64,000 nt of DNA from Paracoccus litorisediminis (GTDB lineage: Bacteria; Pseudomonadota; Alphaproteobacteria; Rhodobacterales; Rhodobacteraceae). How positions within the stretch are numbered: the stretch's first letter is position 1; every line of letters begins with the position of its first letter. The notes beneath the pieces are model-generated. The model made no database searches, was not told the DNA's origin, and saw nothing but the letters and a program-made list of their open reading frames with translations. The DNA is taken from contig NZ_WMIG01000008.1 in the NCBI RefSeq assembly GCF_009711205.1, positions 62,001 through 126,000 on the forward strand, written 5' to 3'. Made by a program: the position numbers and the translations under genes. Below are positions 27,697-33,599 of this stretch, piece by piece.

Positions 27697-29529
27697 TCAG
27701 TGCAGACCCGCCATGCGCAGCCCCTCGACATACAGATCCAGATCCTCGGTATGCTTCAGGGGCGGGACCTTGCGCCAATGCTCGATGGTGAAATTGGGAT
27801 GGACGCGCATCACTTCCTGCGCATGGCTGCGGGCCTGATCCATCTGGCCCAGCATGGCATGGCTGGCGGCCAGCAGGCGATGAGCCTCGCTTTGATCGCG
27901 CATCTTCATCAGCGTCTCGACCGTGCGCTGGTAATCGCCCTTGTGGAAATAGGCGTCGCCAAGGAACCAAAGATAGCTGTCGGGGTGATAGGGGTTCAGC
28001 CGAATGGCACGTTCCAGCAGATTGACCGCGCGTTCCCCCTGCCGGACATAGGCCAGACAATCGCCCATATAGGCCAGCAGATCCGCGTCATTGGGATTGA
28101 GCGACAGCGCATGTTCATAGGCGGCCAGCGCCTCATCATGCTGTTTCTTGTAAAGATGGGCGAGCCCCATTTCCGAGAAACCACGCGAATCCAGCCGGTC
28201 GCATTCGACCGCACGTTTGGCCAGTGTCAGCGCCTGATTGAGCGCGCCTTCCGGGTCCTTGGTCCAGTTGTAGCGCCATTCGACGTTGAAGGTGCGCGAC
28301 ATGGCGGCGTAGCTGCGCCCGTAACCGGGGTCCAGCTCGCGGGCCTGCTCGAACAGGCGGCGGGCATGCAGGTTCGAATCCGGCATGAAACGGAAGCCCA
28401 TATCCTGCCCGCGCAGCACCAGCCCATAGGCGTAAAGCGCTGGATGGGCCTGCTCGGTCAGGCGGCGGCGTTCAACCGCGTCGATATGGATCGCCACGCG
28501 CGAGGCGGTCATCGCCGCGACGTCATCCTGAAAATCGAAGATGTCGGCCATGACCCCGTCATAGCGCTCGGACCAGATGGTATTTTCGCTGGCGGCTTCG
28601 ATCAGGTCGACGGTAATGCGGATACGGTTGTCAGCCCGCCGGAAGCTCGCCGAGAGCAGATAGCGCACGCCCAGCCGCTGGGCGATCTCGCGCAGCGAAC
28701 CGGCATTGGCGGCGGCCACAAAGGCCGAATGCCGGGCAATCACCATCAGATTGCGGAAGCGGCACAGGCTGGTGATCAGATCGGCGACGATGCCCTGACA
28801 CAGATACAGATCGTCGGGCGCGCCCGAGATATTCTCCATCGGCAGGACCGCCAGCGAGGCATCGGGCAGGCTGTCGGCCGCAGCGAATTGATGCATGGGC
28901 AGGGCGATTTCGGCGGGGCGGGGCATGGGCTGCGGCTGATCGACGGAAAAGATCTCGATCGGGGCCGAGACATTCTTTAGCCGTTTCGTGCCCAGAGACC
29001 GCAGCTGCAATTCGGAATTGCCGCGCAGGATCTGATAGACCGCATCGGTGACGCAGATGCCACCCGGCTCGGCAAAGGTTTGGATGCGGGCGGCAAGGTT
29101 CACGCTATGGCCGTAAACCCCGTCCCGCCCGGCAAAGATATCCCCGACCGAGATCCCGACCCGGAACTGGATCGGTGCCAGACCTTCGGACCACATCGCC
29201 TCTCGCGACAGTTCGCGCTGCATCTCAAGCCCGAAATGCAGTGCCTTCTGGACGCTTTCAAAAACCGCGACCAGCCCGTCGCCGGCGGTGTTCACCACCT
29301 CTCCGCCGTAATCGCTGACAAGGTTGCGGATCAGCGTCAGCGAACGGGTCAGCCGGGCGACAGTCCCGGCCTCGTCCAGTTCCAGCAGGCGGGTGTAGCC
29401 GTGGACGTCGGCATAAAGCACCGTGAGAAGCCGGGGACCGGCCAACTCAATATGCGGGCTTGTGGTAATGACGTCGTCCTCTCGTAGGGGCGGGGCCGGT
29501 TCTCCGGTCTCGTCACCGCCCGGTTGCAC
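27697..29529 (-). CDS. Class III nucleotide cyclase with TPR domain
   Basis: 610 residues, no membrane segments. Residues about 31-200 form the class III cyclase domain: metal ligands Asp41 (YADVHGYTRL) and Asp84 (NTAGDGLVAVF), transition-state residues Asn144 and Arg148 (HSVNLAARI). The positions that normally select adenine (Lys and Asp) appear to be Asn80 and His141, so the nucleotide made is uncertain. The middle (about 220-350) resembles the TolB/FlgO-like segment of CyaA proteins in Rhizobiales; residues about 390-590 are TPR repeats. The start is a GTG at 29529 without a strong ribosome site. A Crp-type receptor is encoded at 34845. Confidence 0.88.
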   Translation of the reverse strand: MQPGGDETGEPAPPLREDDVITTSPHIELAGPRLLTVLYADVHGYTRLLELDEAGTVARLTRSLTLIRNLVSDYGGEVVNTAGDGLVAVFESVQKALHFGLEMQRELSREAMWSEGLAPIQFRVGISVGDIFAGRDGVYGHSVNLAARIQTFAEPGGICVTDAVYQILRGNSELQLRSLGTKRLKNVSAPIEIFSVDQPQPMPRPAEIALPMHQFAAADSLPDASLAVLPMENISGAPDDLYLCQGIVADLITSLCRFRNLMVIARHSAFVAAANAGSLREIAQRLGVRYLLSASFRRADNRIRITVDLIEAASENTIWSERYDGVMADIFDFQDDVAAMTASRVAIHIDAVERRRLTEQAHPALYAYGLVLRGQDMGFRFMPDSNLHARRLFEQARELDPGYGRSYAAMSRTFNVEWRYNWTKDPEGALNQALTLAKRAVECDRLDSRGFSEMGLAHLYKKQHDEALAAYEHALSLNPNDADLLAYMGDCLAYVRQGERAVNLLERAIRLNPYHPDSYLWFLGDAYFHKGDYQRTVETLMKMRDQSEAHRLLAASHAMLGQMDQARSHAQEVMRVHPNFTIEHWRKVPPLKHTEDLDLYVEGLRMAGLH

Positions 29530-29691
29530 CCGGTAGCGCAGCCGTAGCTAAACGCCGCGGGTTGCGATTCTGTCAAGGCCACAGCCTTGCAGTTGTTCAG
29601 TTTCATCATGATTTCGTGAGAAAAAATGGGCAATCCCGAAAAGCATAGTGAGCAACGGTGACAGAAGCATATTTGCCCATATACTGCCGGC

Positions 29692-30156
29692 ATGAAGCAA
29701 TGCCCCCCATTCGTTCTGCGACCCGCATTACCCCAGGAATTTGCATTTGCCGAAGAGATTTACATCAATGCCATGAGACCGCTCATGCTGCAGCTGGACA
29801 ACTGGGACGAGCCGATGCGCCGTGCCGCGATCCGGCGTTCTTTCAAAGCCGCCGACTCGCGTATCATCGTGCTGGAGGGCCGAGATATCGGCTGGACGCA
29901 GGTGACCGAGCGGGACGCCGATTACAACCTGGCCCAGATCCAGATTCTGGATGAATTTTGCGGGCTTGGCATCGGTTCTGCGATCATCCGCGACCTGCTG
30001 CGCCACGCCGCGCATGAGGGCAAGACCGTTTCGCTTTCGGCGGTCCGCACCAATCGCGCGATCGAGCTTTACAAGCGTTTGGGCTTTGTCGTGATCGACC
30101 CGGACGCCACGCCGATCATCGACATGGTCTGGACGCCGCCGTCCCGGCAATCCTGA
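29692..30156 (+). CDS. GNAT family N-acetyltransferase
   Basis: 154 residues covering one GNAT fold. The acetyl-CoA pyrophosphate loop is visible as CGLGIGSAIIRDLL (residues about 96-109), preceded by the beta-4 strand AQIQILDEF and followed by NRAIELYKRLGF, a standard GNAT C-terminal motif. It lies 57 bp upstream of the YcaO gene on the same strand, so it may acetylate a product or precursor of that pathway, or be a resistance/immunity factor. Substrate unknown. Confidence 0.88.
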   Translation: MKQCPPFVLRPALPQEFAFAEEIYINAMRPLMLQLDNWDEPMRRAAIRRSFKAADSRIIVLEGRDIGWTQVTERDADYNLAQIQILDEFCGLGIGSAIIRDLLRHAAHEGKTVSLSAVRTNRAIELYKRLGFVVIDPDATPIIDMVWTPPSRQS

Positions 30157-30213
30157 CTTCCCACGCGCGGGCCGCGCCCCTAACATCGTGCCAATTGGCA
30201 CGGTGGGGGACGG

Positions 30214-31452
30214 ATGAGCTTGGACGAGTTGGGCAGCGGCTTGGGTCGCGGGGCCAAGGGACATCTGCGTGGCACCCATCGCGGGATCAGCCCGGCTGAA
30301 ACCGTGGCCCGCGTCACGCCATTGATGGCGCAGATGGGCATTACCCGGATCGCGAATGTCACCGGGCTTGATCGGATCGGCGTGCCGGTGGTCATGGTCT
30401 GCCGACCCAATGCCCGCTCGCTGGCGGTGTCGCAGGGCAAGGGCTGTGATCTGGACGCGGCGACCGCCTCGGGGTTGATGGAGGCCGCCGAGCTGTACCA
30501 CGCCGAGCATATCGAACTACCGCTGAAGCTGGGCAGCATGGCCGAGCTGGCCCATTCCCATGCCTTTGTCGATGTTTCCCGACTGCCACGGATTTCGAAC
30601 CGGTTTCACCGCGATCTGGTGATGCTCTGGGTCGAGGGGCAGGACTTGATCTCGGGTCAGGGGCGCTGGTTGCCCTTTGAAAGCGTGCGGACGAATTTCA
30701 CCCTGCCGCCGCCGCCCGGAAGCGGCTGTTTCGATTGCAGCAGCAACGGGCTGGCTTCGGGCAACAGTCAGATCGAGGCGACCTGTCATGCGATCTGCGA
30801 GATCGTCGAACGCGACGCGACCTCGCTTTGGCATGCGAAGAGCGAACAGGCGCGGGGTGAAGCCGGGCTGGATCTGACCAGCATTGATGACCCTGCCTGT
30901 CGCGAGGTGCTGGCCCAGCTGGAGGCTGCGGATTTCGACGTGCATGTCTGGGAAACCACCACCGATGCCGGGATCGCGTGCTTCTATTGCCTGATCTCGG
31001 ATCGGCGCGATCCAATGCAGCATCATGGCATCGGCGCGGGCTGCCATCCCACCCGCGCCATCGCGTTGTTGCGCGCCCTGACCGAGGCGGTTCAGGTTCG
31101 CACCACCTATATCTCGGGCGCCCGAGACGACCTGATGCCCGAGGAATATTCGGCCCGGGAACGCGCCAATAAAGCCCGGATTGCGGCCCGGATGCGTGCC
31201 ATGCACCGCCCCTTGCGCCGCTTCGCGGATGCACCCGATCAAGCCACGCCAAGTTTCGATCAGGATCTGAACTGGTTGCTGGCGCGGTTGCAGGCCATCG
31301 GCATTACCGAGGCGATTGCCGTCGATCTGGCCAAGCCCGCTTTGGGGCTGGGGGTTGTGCGGGTGGTGATTCCGGGGCTTGAGGGACCGCATGATCACCC
31401 GGCCTATCTGCCCGGCCCGCGCGCCCGCCAGATCGCAGGGGTGGCGGGATGA
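30214..31452 (+). CDS. YcaO domain protein (thioamidation/cyclodehydration type)
   Basis: 412 residues, cytoplasmic. YcaO proteins use ATP to activate peptide-backbone amides. Conserved ATP-site stretches are present: SSNGLASGNSQIEA near residue 178, AICEIVERDATSLW near 195, and GIGAGCHPTRAIALLRALTEAVQVR near 270. The C-terminus lacks the PxPxP tail typical of azoline-forming YcaOs. With a TfuA gene overlapping by 4 bp, the pair matches the enzymes known to install thioamides, as in methyl-CoM reductase and thioviridamide-type peptides. The likely substrate here is encoded 151 bp after tfuA. Confidence 0.9.
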   Translation: MSLDELGSGLGRGAKGHLRGTHRGISPAETVARVTPLMAQMGITRIANVTGLDRIGVPVVMVCRPNARSLAVSQGKGCDLDAATASGLMEAAELYHAEHIELPLKLGSMAELAHSHAFVDVSRLPRISNRFHRDLVMLWVEGQDLISGQGRWLPFESVRTNFTLPPPPGSGCFDCSSNGLASGNSQIEATCHAICEIVERDATSLWHAKSEQARGEAGLDLTSIDDPACREVLAQLEAADFDVHVWETTTDAGIACFYCLISDRRDPMQHHGIGAGCHPTRAIALLRALTEAVQVRTTYISGARDDLMPEEYSARERANKARIAARMRAMHRPLRRFADAPDQATPSFDQDLNWLLARLQAIGITEAIAVDLAKPALGLGVVRVVIPGLEGPHDHPAYLPGPRARQIAGVAG

Positions 31453-32741
31453 GCGTGATCGTCTTTGCGGGACCCTCGATCAGTGCAGCCGATCGGGCTG
31501 CATTTCCCGAATTCCGCTTTCTTCCCCCTGTCCGACAGGGTGAACTTTACGCCGCCGCCCGCAGCGCTCCCAAGGCCATTGGCATTATCGATGGCTATTT
31601 CGACGGCGTTCCGGCGGTCTGGCACAAGGAGGTGCTTTGGGCGCTGTCGGAAGGCATCGCGGTCTTTGGCGCGGCCAGTATGGGGGCACTGCGGGCGGCC
31701 GAACTGCATCCTTTCGGAATGACCGGGATCGGTCGCATCTTTGAGGATTTCCGGGACGGACGGCTGACCGATGACGACGAGGTCGCCTTGCAGCACGGAC
31801 CCGCCGAGGCAGGCTATCTGGCCCTGAGTGAGCCGATGGTGAATGTCCGCGCCACACTAACGCGTGCCGTGACAGATGGCGTGCTGGATGCTGACAGCGC
31901 CGAAAATCTGGCTCGGATAGCCAAGTCGCAATTCTATCAGCAACGCAACTGGCCCGGCATTCTGGCCAAGGCGGATCTGCCGCCACCACAGGGTGACGCG
32001 TTCAGGGCTTGGCTGCGTCAGGGCAAGGTCGATCAGAAGCGCGAAGATGCACGGGCGCTGTTGCAGGCAATGACCGATCACCTGCAACAGGGCGCGCCAC
32101 GAGCCATCGCGAATTTCGCCTTTGAGCGGACCGAGGCCTGGCTGAACGCGCCTTGGCACGCGCAGCACGGGGGAACTGCCGATCCGGACGACGCCCTGAT
32201 CCTTGACGAATTGCGGCTTGACGGAGACGCCTATCTGCGGACCCGCCGCGCCGCGTTGCTGCAATCGCTGGCCAGCCAGACCGCGCAGGTCATGGGGCTG
32301 GAGCCGCAACCCGACGAGATTGCCGCCTCGGTAGCGTCCTTCAGGCGAGGCCGGGGGCTGTTTCGGCAGCAACAGGTCGAAAACTGGGCCACCGAGAATG
32401 GTCTGGAGGGGAGCGAGGTCCGACGGCTGGCAACCGGACATGCAGCCTCGGGGAAACTGGCACGGCATCAGGACGAGGCCCTGCAGGGTGCAATCCTTGA
32501 CGTGCTGCGTTTGGATGGTCGTTATCCCGTCCTGCGCGACCGGGCACGGGTAAGGGCGGGACTGACCAAGTCCGGCACGCCGCCATTGCCGCTGCTGGTC
32601 GCATGGTATTTCGAATCCCGGCTGGGCAGACCGGTTCCCGAGGATATTGACGCCTATGCCCGCGAGTTGGGTTTTTCCGGACAGGCGCGGCTGCTGGACC
32701 TTCTTACGGGCGAATTCGCACTGGCGGCGCGCACGGATTAA
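31449..32741 (+). CDS. tfuA: TfuA-like protein
   Basis: 430 residues. The N-terminal third is the TfuA core: VFAGPSISAADRAAF, a GELYAAARSAPKAIGIIDGYF stretch near residue 37, VWHKEVLWALSEGIAVFGAASMGALRAAEL near 57 and GMTGIGRIFEDF near 92. TfuA was named for trifolitoxin production in Rhizobium and is known as the YcaO partner that helps deliver sulfur for thioamide formation. The C-terminal 250 residues are less conserved and probably helical. It overlaps ycaO by 4 bp, so the two are translationally coupled. Confidence 0.9.
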   Translation: MSVIVFAGPSISAADRAAFPEFRFLPPVRQGELYAAARSAPKAIGIIDGYFDGVPAVWHKEVLWALSEGIAVFGAASMGALRAAELHPFGMTGIGRIFEDFRDGRLTDDDEVALQHGPAEAGYLALSEPMVNVRATLTRAVTDGVLDADSAENLARIAKSQFYQQRNWPGILAKADLPPPQGDAFRAWLRQGKVDQKREDARALLQAMTDHLQQGAPRAIANFAFERTEAWLNAPWHAQHGGTADPDDALILDELRLDGDAYLRTRRAALLQSLASQTAQVMGLEPQPDEIAASVASFRRGRGLFRQQQVENWATENGLEGSEVRRLATGHAASGKLARHQDEALQGAILDVLRLDGRYPVLRDRARVRAGLTKSGTPPLPLLVAWYFESRLGRPVPEDIDAYARELGFSGQARLLDLLTGEFALAARTD

Positions 32742-32762
32742 GGCAATTTGACTGATATTTCG

Positions 32763-32788
32763 CTGTCCACACAACGAGTTGTCGACAG
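32763..32788 (+). promoter_or_regulatory. Inverted repeat between tfuA and the GMS-repeat gene
   Basis: CTGTC (32763-32767) and GACAG (32784-32788) bracket an inner ACAAC (32771-32775) / GTTGT (32778-32782) pair. It could be an operator or a weak terminator or processing site in the 151-bp gap. A strong GGAGG precedes the next ATG. Confidence 0.45.
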
Positions 32789-32892
32789 CCTGATTCCGGT
32801 AAGCTAGCCTCTGGCACGGAATGCTCCCGGTGGGTCAGGACATGGCCCGCCGCGTTGTTTGACGGTTTTTCCTATTTTCTGGAGGTTCAAGA

Positions 32893-33567
32893 ATGTCCGA
32901 GTCCTTGCTCAATCCCTCCGTTGTCCAGCTTTTCGGTCGTGTGATCGGGGATATTCAGATCAAATCCCCGGAACCGGAAGGGGCGGTTGCCGGCTATCTG
33001 GATCAGCAGTTGCACGCTCCGGATGCGAGTTTCGCGCGGATCTACGGTTTCGGCTATGAAGGGCATTATTACATCCTGCCCGGAACCGCGCTTTATCTGG
33101 TGCATGGTCCGGGCCAGCCTGCTGCCGAGGCACTGGGAAAATTGCATCTGCACACGGATGATCCGGGCGCGGCAACTGGAACGTCCGCACTGAGTCTGCC
33201 GAAAGACCTGGTGCTGTGGACCTATGACAAGGCAGATTTCACCATCCGTCTGGACATGCTGTCGGGCCAGTTCGACCAGCTTCTGGTTTGCCCCTCGGGC
33301 CCGGTGGTCGGCATGAGCTTCCACGGCATGAGTGTGCCCGGCATGAGCGCACAAGGGATGAGCGTCGGCGGCATGAGTGTGCCGGGGATGAGCGCGCAGG
33401 GCATGAGTGTCGGTGGCATGAGCGTGCCGGGCATGAATGCCCAAGGCATGAGCGTTGGCGGGATGAGCGTGCAGGCCGTCAGCCTGTCGGGGATGAGCGC
33501 CCCCGGCATGAGTGCGCGGGGTATGAGCGCACAAGCACGGGGCGACAAGAAGGAAGACGAGGTCTGA
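32893..33567 (+). CDS. GMSxx-repeat protein, candidate substrate of YcaO-TfuA
   Basis: 224 residues with no signal peptide. Residues 1-139 form a compact acidic domain that I do not recognise (starts MSESLLNPSVVQLFGR, contains ARIYGFGYEGHYYILPGTALYLVHG-like hydrophobic strands). Residues 140-214 are fifteen tandem pentapeptides, GMS followed by two variable residues, and residues 215-224 are a charged tail (ARGDKKEDEV). The layout resembles a leader/recognition domain plus a repeated core. It follows GNAT-ycaO-tfuA on the same strand and is closed by a strong terminator. Repeats lack Cys; Ser and the Gly/Met backbone amides are the possible modification sites. A beta-helical pentapeptide-repeat or Met-rich metal-binding protein is an alternative. 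Confidence 0.8.
   Translation: MSESLLNPSVVQLFGRVIGDIQIKSPEPEGAVAGYLDQQLHAPDASFARIYGFGYEGHYYILPGTALYLVHGPGQPAAEALGKLHLHTDDPGAATGTSALSLPKDLVLWTYDKADFTIRLDMLSGQFDQLLVCPSGPVVGMSFHGMSVPGMSAQGMSVGGMSVPGMSAQGMSVGGMSVPGMNAQGMSVGGMSVQAVSLSGMSAPGMSARGMSAQARGDKKEDEV
33310..33534 (+). repeat. In-frame tandem repeat, 15 units of 15 bp (GMSxx)
   Basis: Fifteen consecutive 15-base units, 14 of them encoding Gly-Met-Ser (once Gly-Met-Asn) plus two residues; unit 12 is AVSLS. A higher-order 45-base period is visible: GMSVP-GMSAQ-GMSVG occurs about three times in units 2-10. Gly, Ser, Val, Ala, Gln and Pro codons vary between units (for example ggc/ggg/ggt, agc/agt, gtg/gtc/gtt), so the repeats are old and held by selection on the protein. 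Confidence 0.95.
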
Positions 33568-33574
33568 ATCGGAA

Positions 33575-33599
33575 GGGGCCGCCCGGTTAGGGCGGCCCC
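33575..33599. terminator. Strong bidirectional hairpin
   Basis: GGGGCCGCCC (33575-33584) and GGGCGGCCCC (33590-33599) form a perfect 10-bp stem with a GGTTA loop between the convergent GMS-repeat gene and the gene of unknown function. It can end transcription from both sides. Confidence 0.75.

Follow-up and report, generated by a model that had tools for sequence, protein, structure and literature searches.

What does a YcaO–TfuA enzyme pair act on when the next gene encodes a protein ending in a run of short repeats? The question is raised by a 64,000-nucleotide stretch of the Paracoccus litorisediminis genome (contig NZ_WMIG01000008.1, positions 62,001 to 126,000; hereafter the window, numbered from its first letter), in which genes for a GNAT acetyltransferase, a YcaO protein, a TfuA protein and a 224-residue repeat protein, PRE, form a cassette. 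On balance, we favor reading the cassette as a modification system akin to those of ribosomally synthesized and post-translationally modified peptides (RiPPs), with PRE as the precursor and its repeated tail thioamidated, most likely at Gly, following a multi-core logic like that of the thiovarsolins. This reading joins the thioglycine system of McrA with the thiovarsolins as the simplest account of the locus.

PRE and its neighbors in Paracoccus

The cassette genes lie on the plus strand, where GNAT (29692–30156; PF13508, 1.8e-9) is followed by ycaO (30214–31452; PF02624, 1.5e-80), tfuA (31449–32741; PF07812, 4.2e-48) and the PRE gene (32893–33567), whose product has no Pfam match above cut-off. 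A preliminary description of this DNA had given the extent of the locus, the common direction of its genes and a 4-bp overlap of ycaO and tfuA, all correctly, and the two adjacent proteins match PF02624 and PF07812 above cut-off.

The PRE tail, residues 140–214 (33310–33534, plus strand), is the candidate modified core. It was first described as fifteen GMSxx units; the fifteen in-phase pentapeptides stand, although 13 begin exactly with GMS, one with GMN and one with AVS, such that Gly, Met and Ser each occur in 14 of 15. The array is real and not a chance pattern: residues five apart are identical at 41 of 80 positions, whereas 20,000 shuffles never exceeded 23, and Tandem Repeats Finder scores the tract at 214 with a 45-base period. 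Because Gly is encoded by GGC (9), GGG (4) and GGT (1), and Ser by AGC (10) and AGT (4), units differ silently while residues stay. A structure model gives the tail no confidence, as for a disordered tail (block predicted local distance difference test [pLDDT] values of 36–55). The protein closes with the charged end ARGDKKEDEV and a stop codon (33535–33567, plus strand); in aligned relatives the C-terminal residue is mostly Asp. Neither of two repeat families accommodates PRE: PF00805 (pentapeptide repeats) was not listed for the window protein and reached 12 of a 20.2 gathering cut-off in one relative (L066), and PF25296 (Decapeptide region) scored 18 against 45.

The N-terminal domain, residues 1–139 (32893–33309, plus strand), is conserved, and residue invariance among relatives marks it as a candidate leader or recognition domain. 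We aligned the window protein with those of 24 of the 32 loci described below, omitting five near-identical Mesorhizobium rows, L062, L073 and L087; invariant residues among these 25 sequences include L13, G15, A48, R49, Y51, G57, V70, H71, G72, G74, W109, Y111, D112, D115 and G125. The structure model is confident only in parts of the domain, with residues 11–20 and 41–80 at block pLDDT 85–91. Eleven relatives (L061, L064, L065, L068, L070–L072, L077–L079 and L083) carry an insertion of about 100 residues behind residue 26, and in some of these long forms it contains a VLVKDQTDxxENGVYxV-like stretch reminiscent of phage tail proteins.

Within the genus, 12 of 125 genomes encode a cassette-type TfuA (at least 49% identity), and these 12 are also the ones with PRE. 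This bears out the earlier proposal that the repeat protein belongs with YcaO–TfuA, as do relatives with other cores beside the pair in many genera. The 12 genomes all share one locus and are therefore not independent events. In G133 and G134 the sole TfuA is a distant one and PRE has no match; G107 and G009 encode another distant TfuA in addition to that of the cassette. GNAT is present in 11 of the 12 Paracoccus-group loci and was not found in L033 (genome G057); tails in the group run from two units, in L033, up to fifteen. In P. mutanolyticus (L037/L062), TfuA, cyclase and PRE all look frameshifted, indicating a decaying cassette or sequence errors. One further candidate PRE bearer, G067, was rejected as a low-complexity match (E 0.001, 28% identity, repeats only) and is not counted.

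A divergent gene overlooked in the first reading also belongs with the cassette. CYC (27697–29529, minus strand) encodes a class III nucleotide cyclase with C-terminal TPR repeats (PF00211, 2e-16, plus TPR families). Its orthologues align from residue 16–29 on, and translation may thus begin downstream of the GTG at 29529. An orthologue is found in 13 of the 125 genomes, namely the 12 with the cassette and G058, which retains the cyclase and the next gene about 300 bases apart while jointly missing GNAT, YcaO, TfuA and PRE. This locus (L055, 8585–11605) represents a natural gap strain for the four-gene block.

Companions of PRE across lineages

A profile of eleven PRE sequences, searched against genome contigs, retrieved 32 loci, including 7 from Paracoccus and 7 from Mesorhizobium. 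The remainder come from Afifella, Tepidamorphaceae, a Ruegeria metagenome-assembled genome (MAG), Aurantimonas, Aminobacter, Roseibium, Rhodospirillales, Kiloniellales and gammaproteobacterial MAGs; one of the last, L066, has a YcaO that branches with that of Afifella (100/100 in the tree of YcaO proteins) and may be a binning error. Further genomes yielded matches in 8 of 394 from the family, 5 of 385 from the class and 4 of 398 in a phylum sample. Each of these figures counts the window genome, and G218 appears in all three, leaving 12 new genomes.

We scored a gene as adjacent to or near PRE by a tblastn match inside the fetched stretch (E 1e-3 for the gene-order set, 1e-4 for the Rhizobium test), which usually spanned several kb per side and less at contig ends. 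By this measure, 49 distinct loci have TfuA adjacent in 44, YcaO in 43, the cyclase near in 44 and GNAT near in 26. Three of the loci without adjacent TfuA (L078, L084 and L086) are cut by a contig edge, with TfuA on another contig; at L075 and L081 it is missing although the contig continues. The full set of 78 loci comprises the window, 11 other Paracoccus loci, 25 non-Paracoccus loci from the profile search, 12 from the further genomes and 29 from the Rhizobium test, with seven Paracoccus loci that occur in both sets counted once; L114 (a second locus of G009, PRE-like by eye), a PRE start in L134 and plasmid records L141–L145 stand outside it. Across the 78, TfuA is adjacent at 48 and the cyclase near at 72, and an unannotated protein, X, lies beside PRE at 63 of the 66 loci outside the Paracoccus cassette. 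From this linkage we infer that the YcaO–TfuA pair acts on PRE. A conserved domain ahead of a repeated tail that varies, in a protein linked to the pair at the 48 loci with adjacent TfuA, likewise fits the N-terminal leader and repeat core originally proposed.

The predicted model of X has an M4/M36 thermolysin-like (gluzincin) fold, with HExxH and a downstream Glu; our alignment of X covers 16 of the 23 profile-search loci that have it. Three members scanned gave no Pfam or NCBIfam family above cut-off, and by eye no signal peptide is evident; X is probably a cytosolic M4/M36-like zinc protease.

Several observations weigh against the thioamidation reading. X is found in none of the 12 Paracoccus cassette loci and has no match in the window genome (G000); with no protease found in its own genome, cleavage in the window organism is unexplained. 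A plasmid search with the P. denitrificans PRE returned 51 records, 49 of them Rhizobium, and the four of these that we examined (L142–L145; L145 by sequence, being unannotated) encode the cyclase, X and a PRE with a SGGMSRSGGALSRSGGVMSRSGGF-kind core, with no YcaO–TfuA in the stretch. Strong PRE matches occur in 25 of 148 genomes of the same genus, to which L075 belongs, and all 24 fetched loci together with L075 have the order cyclase–protease–PRE without adjacent YcaO–TfuA. The MAG that carries L081 gave no match to either YcaO or TfuA, and at L124 TfuA is present while YcaO lies not beside it but on another contig. Outside the Paracoccus cassette, then, the cyclase and the protease are steadier companions of PRE than YcaO–TfuA, and PRE is not exclusively a partner of the pair. 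GNAT, near PRE in barely more than half of the gene-order set, is similarly inconstant. To these we add enzyme scores under family cut-offs, the frequency of Ser and a PRE branch lacking repeats, detailed with the cores below.

Five weak hits in the same 148 Rhizobium genomes comprise four loci with the order cyclase–YcaO–TfuA–X–PRE and a non-repeat tail, and one lone remnant (L196). TfuA is encoded elsewhere in all 25 strong-PRE genomes; since 142 of the 148 have a TfuA, this is uninformative, and modification in trans is possible in this branch. The Rhizobium branch also encodes a protein of about 110 residues 3′ of PRE (L142, 7600–7932; L143, 7591–7917; L144, 7617–7958; L075, 8591–8917), for which Pfam gave no match in the one member scanned, that of L142.

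These patterns bear on a different possibility, that PRE is primarily a substrate, inhibitor or adaptor of X and the cyclase within a proteolytic signaling module, with YcaO–TfuA an optional accessory or acting elsewhere. The constancy of X and the cyclase relative to TfuA, and the Rhizobium branch without an adjacent pair, would fit such a module. Paracoccus, however, is the mirror image of Rhizobium, retaining YcaO–TfuA and PRE without the protease. Moreover, the 27 loci that lack YcaO–TfuA and are not cut by a contig end come almost entirely from one genus, a single lineage sampled deeply (25 of 27, plus the remnant L196), with only L081 elsewhere. We therefore consider the signaling module unlikely. 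The preliminary description had named GMSxx-repeat homologues widespread without ycaO–tfuA neighbors as evidence against its proposal. In part this applies: PRE relatives lacking such neighbors exist in Rhizobium, with RSGG-type repeats. For GMS-type cores, the pair is adjacent throughout the 12 Paracoccus-group and the 7 Mesorhizobium loci.

Three YcaO–TfuA loci of the Paracoccus-group genus (L125, L126 and L197, the last fetched as a TfuA locus) have no PRE match yet a cyclase gene nearby, so the cyclase may accompany YcaO–TfuA more generally.

Repeat units, enzymes and candidate chemistry

The repeats differ by lineage. Five-residue units take the forms GMSxx/GMSAR, GASVR, GAKVS, GARVS, GGRVS, GSKVS and GAxxS, and other lengths include six (GGKAYS, GRSDLV), seven (GQRVRxS, GMMARSS), eight (GMSAPGPR in P. 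limosus) and four (GMNV). Phasing 33 arrays (196 units) on Gly shows that residue retained in 195 units and followed three residues later, at position four, by V or A in 182, with a period of 4 to 8. GMS, taken at first as the defining element, thus gives way to this broader pattern. The count uses the best-scoring stretch of each tail, from which irregular units (as in L056) can drop out. It omits L057, L058, L063 and L076 (array score under 8), L062 (frameshifted), L087, L122, Paracoccus loci L028, L031, L035 and L036, the Rhizobium branch and the non-repeat branch; L076 and L122 show no clear array and L087 has two units only. Judged by these sequences, Gly is the best-placed constant of the units, with Ser common too. 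Gly as the site of modification is our guess, backed by this conservation.

Ten loci (L119–L121, L132, L133, L192–L195 and L114) combine YcaO, TfuA and X with a PRE relative that lacks repeats, its tails reading SYSAHMQMAHRGGKLS, SPLAYAQTQALAPQRGPMGG and SPSSYAITASLAHRDGRLNRE. In a YcaO tree of 48 chosen rows, nine of the ten (L193 omitted) fall into a single supported clade (100/99). For the most part, loci that share a core also cluster in this tree, L060 being an exception, but linkage alone would also produce such clustering.

The closest PDB relative of the window YcaO is the archaeal YcaO MJ1094 (6pe3, 2.4e-30), and its EAxxHAxxEIxERDA stretch matches in that comparison. Against TIGR03266, the family for McrA-glycine thioamidation, YcaO scores 208.4 bits, under the cut-off of 365, and TfuA reaches 211.2 of 235.2 against the corresponding NF033432. 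TfuA aligns with 6xp8 (4e-35) over residues 3–209 only, which leaves a C-terminal extension of about 220 residues (about 210–430) without a Pfam match and makes the protein twice the length covered; the match is likewise restricted to the first 230 or so residues in L077, L117 and L118. This second half could be a leader-binding part.

YcaO proteins can also make azolines, and the preliminary description raised azolines at Ser as a second chemistry. Cyclization of the repeat Ser to oxazolines would suit the presence of Ser in 14 of the 15 window units and in 181 of the 196 units of the 33 arrays, almost as often as Gly. The position of Ser relative to Gly is not fixed, however, being offset by 1, 2, 4, 5 or 6, and single units have Ala, Gly, Asn, Asp or Arg instead. 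The GMNV core of L124, a locus with no adjacent YcaO, is free of Ser, Thr and Cys. The window YcaO scores 136.1 against a cut-off of 219.25 for TIGR03604 (SagD, the azoline cyclodehydratase of thiazole/oxazole-modified microcins [TOMMs]) and lies nearer the McrA-thioamidation family; no dehydrogenase or ThiF-like gene was recognized among the eight proteins scanned, and TfuA is present. Despite the abundance of Ser, we regard oxazolines as less likely than thioamides and improbable.

Could the tail instead be an unmodified low-complexity or, in Paracoccus with its Met-rich GMS units, metal-binding segment, linked to YcaO–TfuA only through a shared operon? The lack of confident structure in the model would agree with this. 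Many cores without Met (GAKVS, GGRVS and GASVR) nevertheless keep both the array and Gly, and the linkage survives several gene orders, making an unmodified tail decidedly unlikely.

We therefore return to thioamidation of the repeat tail by YcaO–TfuA, which the combined analysis makes probable. The pair would recognize the N-terminal domain of PRE (roughly 130 residues) and exchange backbone C=O for C=S in the tail, most likely at the Gly of each unit. Outside the Paracoccus cassette, X may then cut off the leader or cut between units; GNAT, in the loci that have it, could acetylate the released product; and the cyclase–TPR protein may be a regulatory or sensing partner, probably setting when modification occurs. 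A bolder extension, which we hold only tentatively and think more doubtful than the general scheme, is a ladder of thioglycines, one per repeat, built by YcaO–TfuA on a domain of about 130 residues, released by a protease family new to such pathways and placed under the control of a cyclic-nucleotide cyclase dedicated to it. As the residues around Gly and the repeat length are freely swapped, the backbone sulfur pattern, not side chains, would carry function in such a ladder, for instance in soft-metal binding or protease-resistant signaling.

The flanks of the cassette hold further features. A hairpin 3′ of PRE (33575–33599, plus strand), with a 10-bp GC stem, is a likely transcription end; the strong terminator claimed for this site is upheld as a strong hairpin (−34.3 kcal/mol over 51 nt, z −4.1) but not as one with a T-run, the absence of which keeps it off the list of a simple terminator scan of the window. 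A promoter-like site directly upstream of the GNAT start (29658–29685, plus strand) matches the consensus at 10 of 12 positions; it is weak, because one site was found where shuffles give 0.9, and if used it would yield a near-leaderless GNAT transcript. Between GNAT and ycaO, at 30188–30201, lies the perfect palindrome GTGCCAATTGGCAC; we dropped it as an operator, since no exact copy appears in the loci of other genomes examined. A viral origin was likewise set aside, with no confirmed relative among viral contigs and none in PHROGs for the window PRE. So was a Pycsar defense reading: PADLOC gave CYC only cyclase models (PycC, best 1.5e-11), which we attribute to the shared cyclase domain, and nothing on the other five proteins scanned.

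Relation to known systems

YcaO–TfuA pairs are abundant in Proteobacteria, making up 70% of 2,326 filtered clusters, yet the thioamidated RiPPs known from such pairs in 2021 all came from Actinobacteria (PMC8120280). That survey reports 613 cluster families and more than half of its detected clusters as proteobacterial; the parts of its main text on which we draw do not describe the PRE family. Nor did we recognize any other publication that does, in a search that mostly excluded subscription papers; the supplement of PMC8120280 may hold some of the loci. The enzyme pair is thus an established one; in the searchable literature, neither the PRE precursor family nor its protease nor the partnership with a cyclase is described. 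A defined precursor family can now be paired with one branch of proteobacterial YcaO–TfuA and, if confirmed, would constitute a new class of modified peptide. Its natural variation, with 2 to 15 repeats in the Paracoccus group, unit lengths of 4 to 8 and changing residues, makes a rule for the thioamidation site testable across cores, including the three-unit core of Paracoccus denitrificans, a laboratory organism.

Individual components resemble known proteins to differing degrees. X is like M4 thermolysin and M36 fungalysin in modeled fold, yet the three members scanned match no family above cut-off, and it is not encoded in the window. The part of a review of RiPP proteases on which we draw (PMC10885120) lists no M4/M36-like fold, and its main text uses “thermolysin” and “gluzincin” 0 times; as a candidate for maturation, X would thus bring in a fold absent from the proteases listed there. 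CYC is in part like two cyclase families that NCBI ties to peptide modification and is a member of neither: it scores 62.2 against a cut-off of 400 for TIGR04510 (peptide modification system cyclase; C-terminal residues 256–575) and 30 bits against 706 for TIGR03903 (TOMM kinase/cyclase; cyclase part, 64–183).

Among complete systems, the McrA thioglycine pathway shares its enzymes most closely with the window. In M. acetivorans, the formation of thioglycine in McrA depends on both YcaO and TfuA, Gly being the modified residue, according to the results available from PMC5589413, and the best-scoring NCBI families of both window enzymes are those of this pathway. Its substrate, by contrast, is a large enzyme in which only one Gly is modified, and the window proteins fall below both equivalog cut-offs. 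The characterized YcaO–TfuA RiPPs enumerated in PMC13174530 are thioviridamide-like thioamitides, thioamidated thiopeptides, chimeric lanthipeptides and the new std (Asn); as presented there, they include no Gly-repeat core, and no gene for an M4/M36-like protease or a cyclase–TPR protein is mentioned for any of them.

The thiovarsolins offer the nearest precedent for the arrangement as a whole. The var cluster of Streptomyces varsoviensis produces N-acetylated thioamide tripeptides by the action of YcaO–TfuA on a repeated core (PMC6511847), and, as here, the enzymes are encoded beside the repeated-core precursor, in a family ranging from non-repeating to five repeats. The thiovarsolin core is APR or GPR, as opposed to the Gly-based units of PRE, and neither motif is present in the window core; the GMSAPGPR units of P. 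limosus (L067, 8001–8522) do contain GPR, the source tripeptide of thiovarsolins C and D, probably by coincidence. The part of PMC6511847 on which we draw presumes endogenous peptidases and an N-acetyltransferase in place of a cluster-specific protease and mentions no cyclase–TPR protein. The systems described here differ in the long N-terminal domain of the precursor, in the cyclase, in the GNAT that some of the loci have, and in a protease gene at loci other than the Paracoccus cassette.

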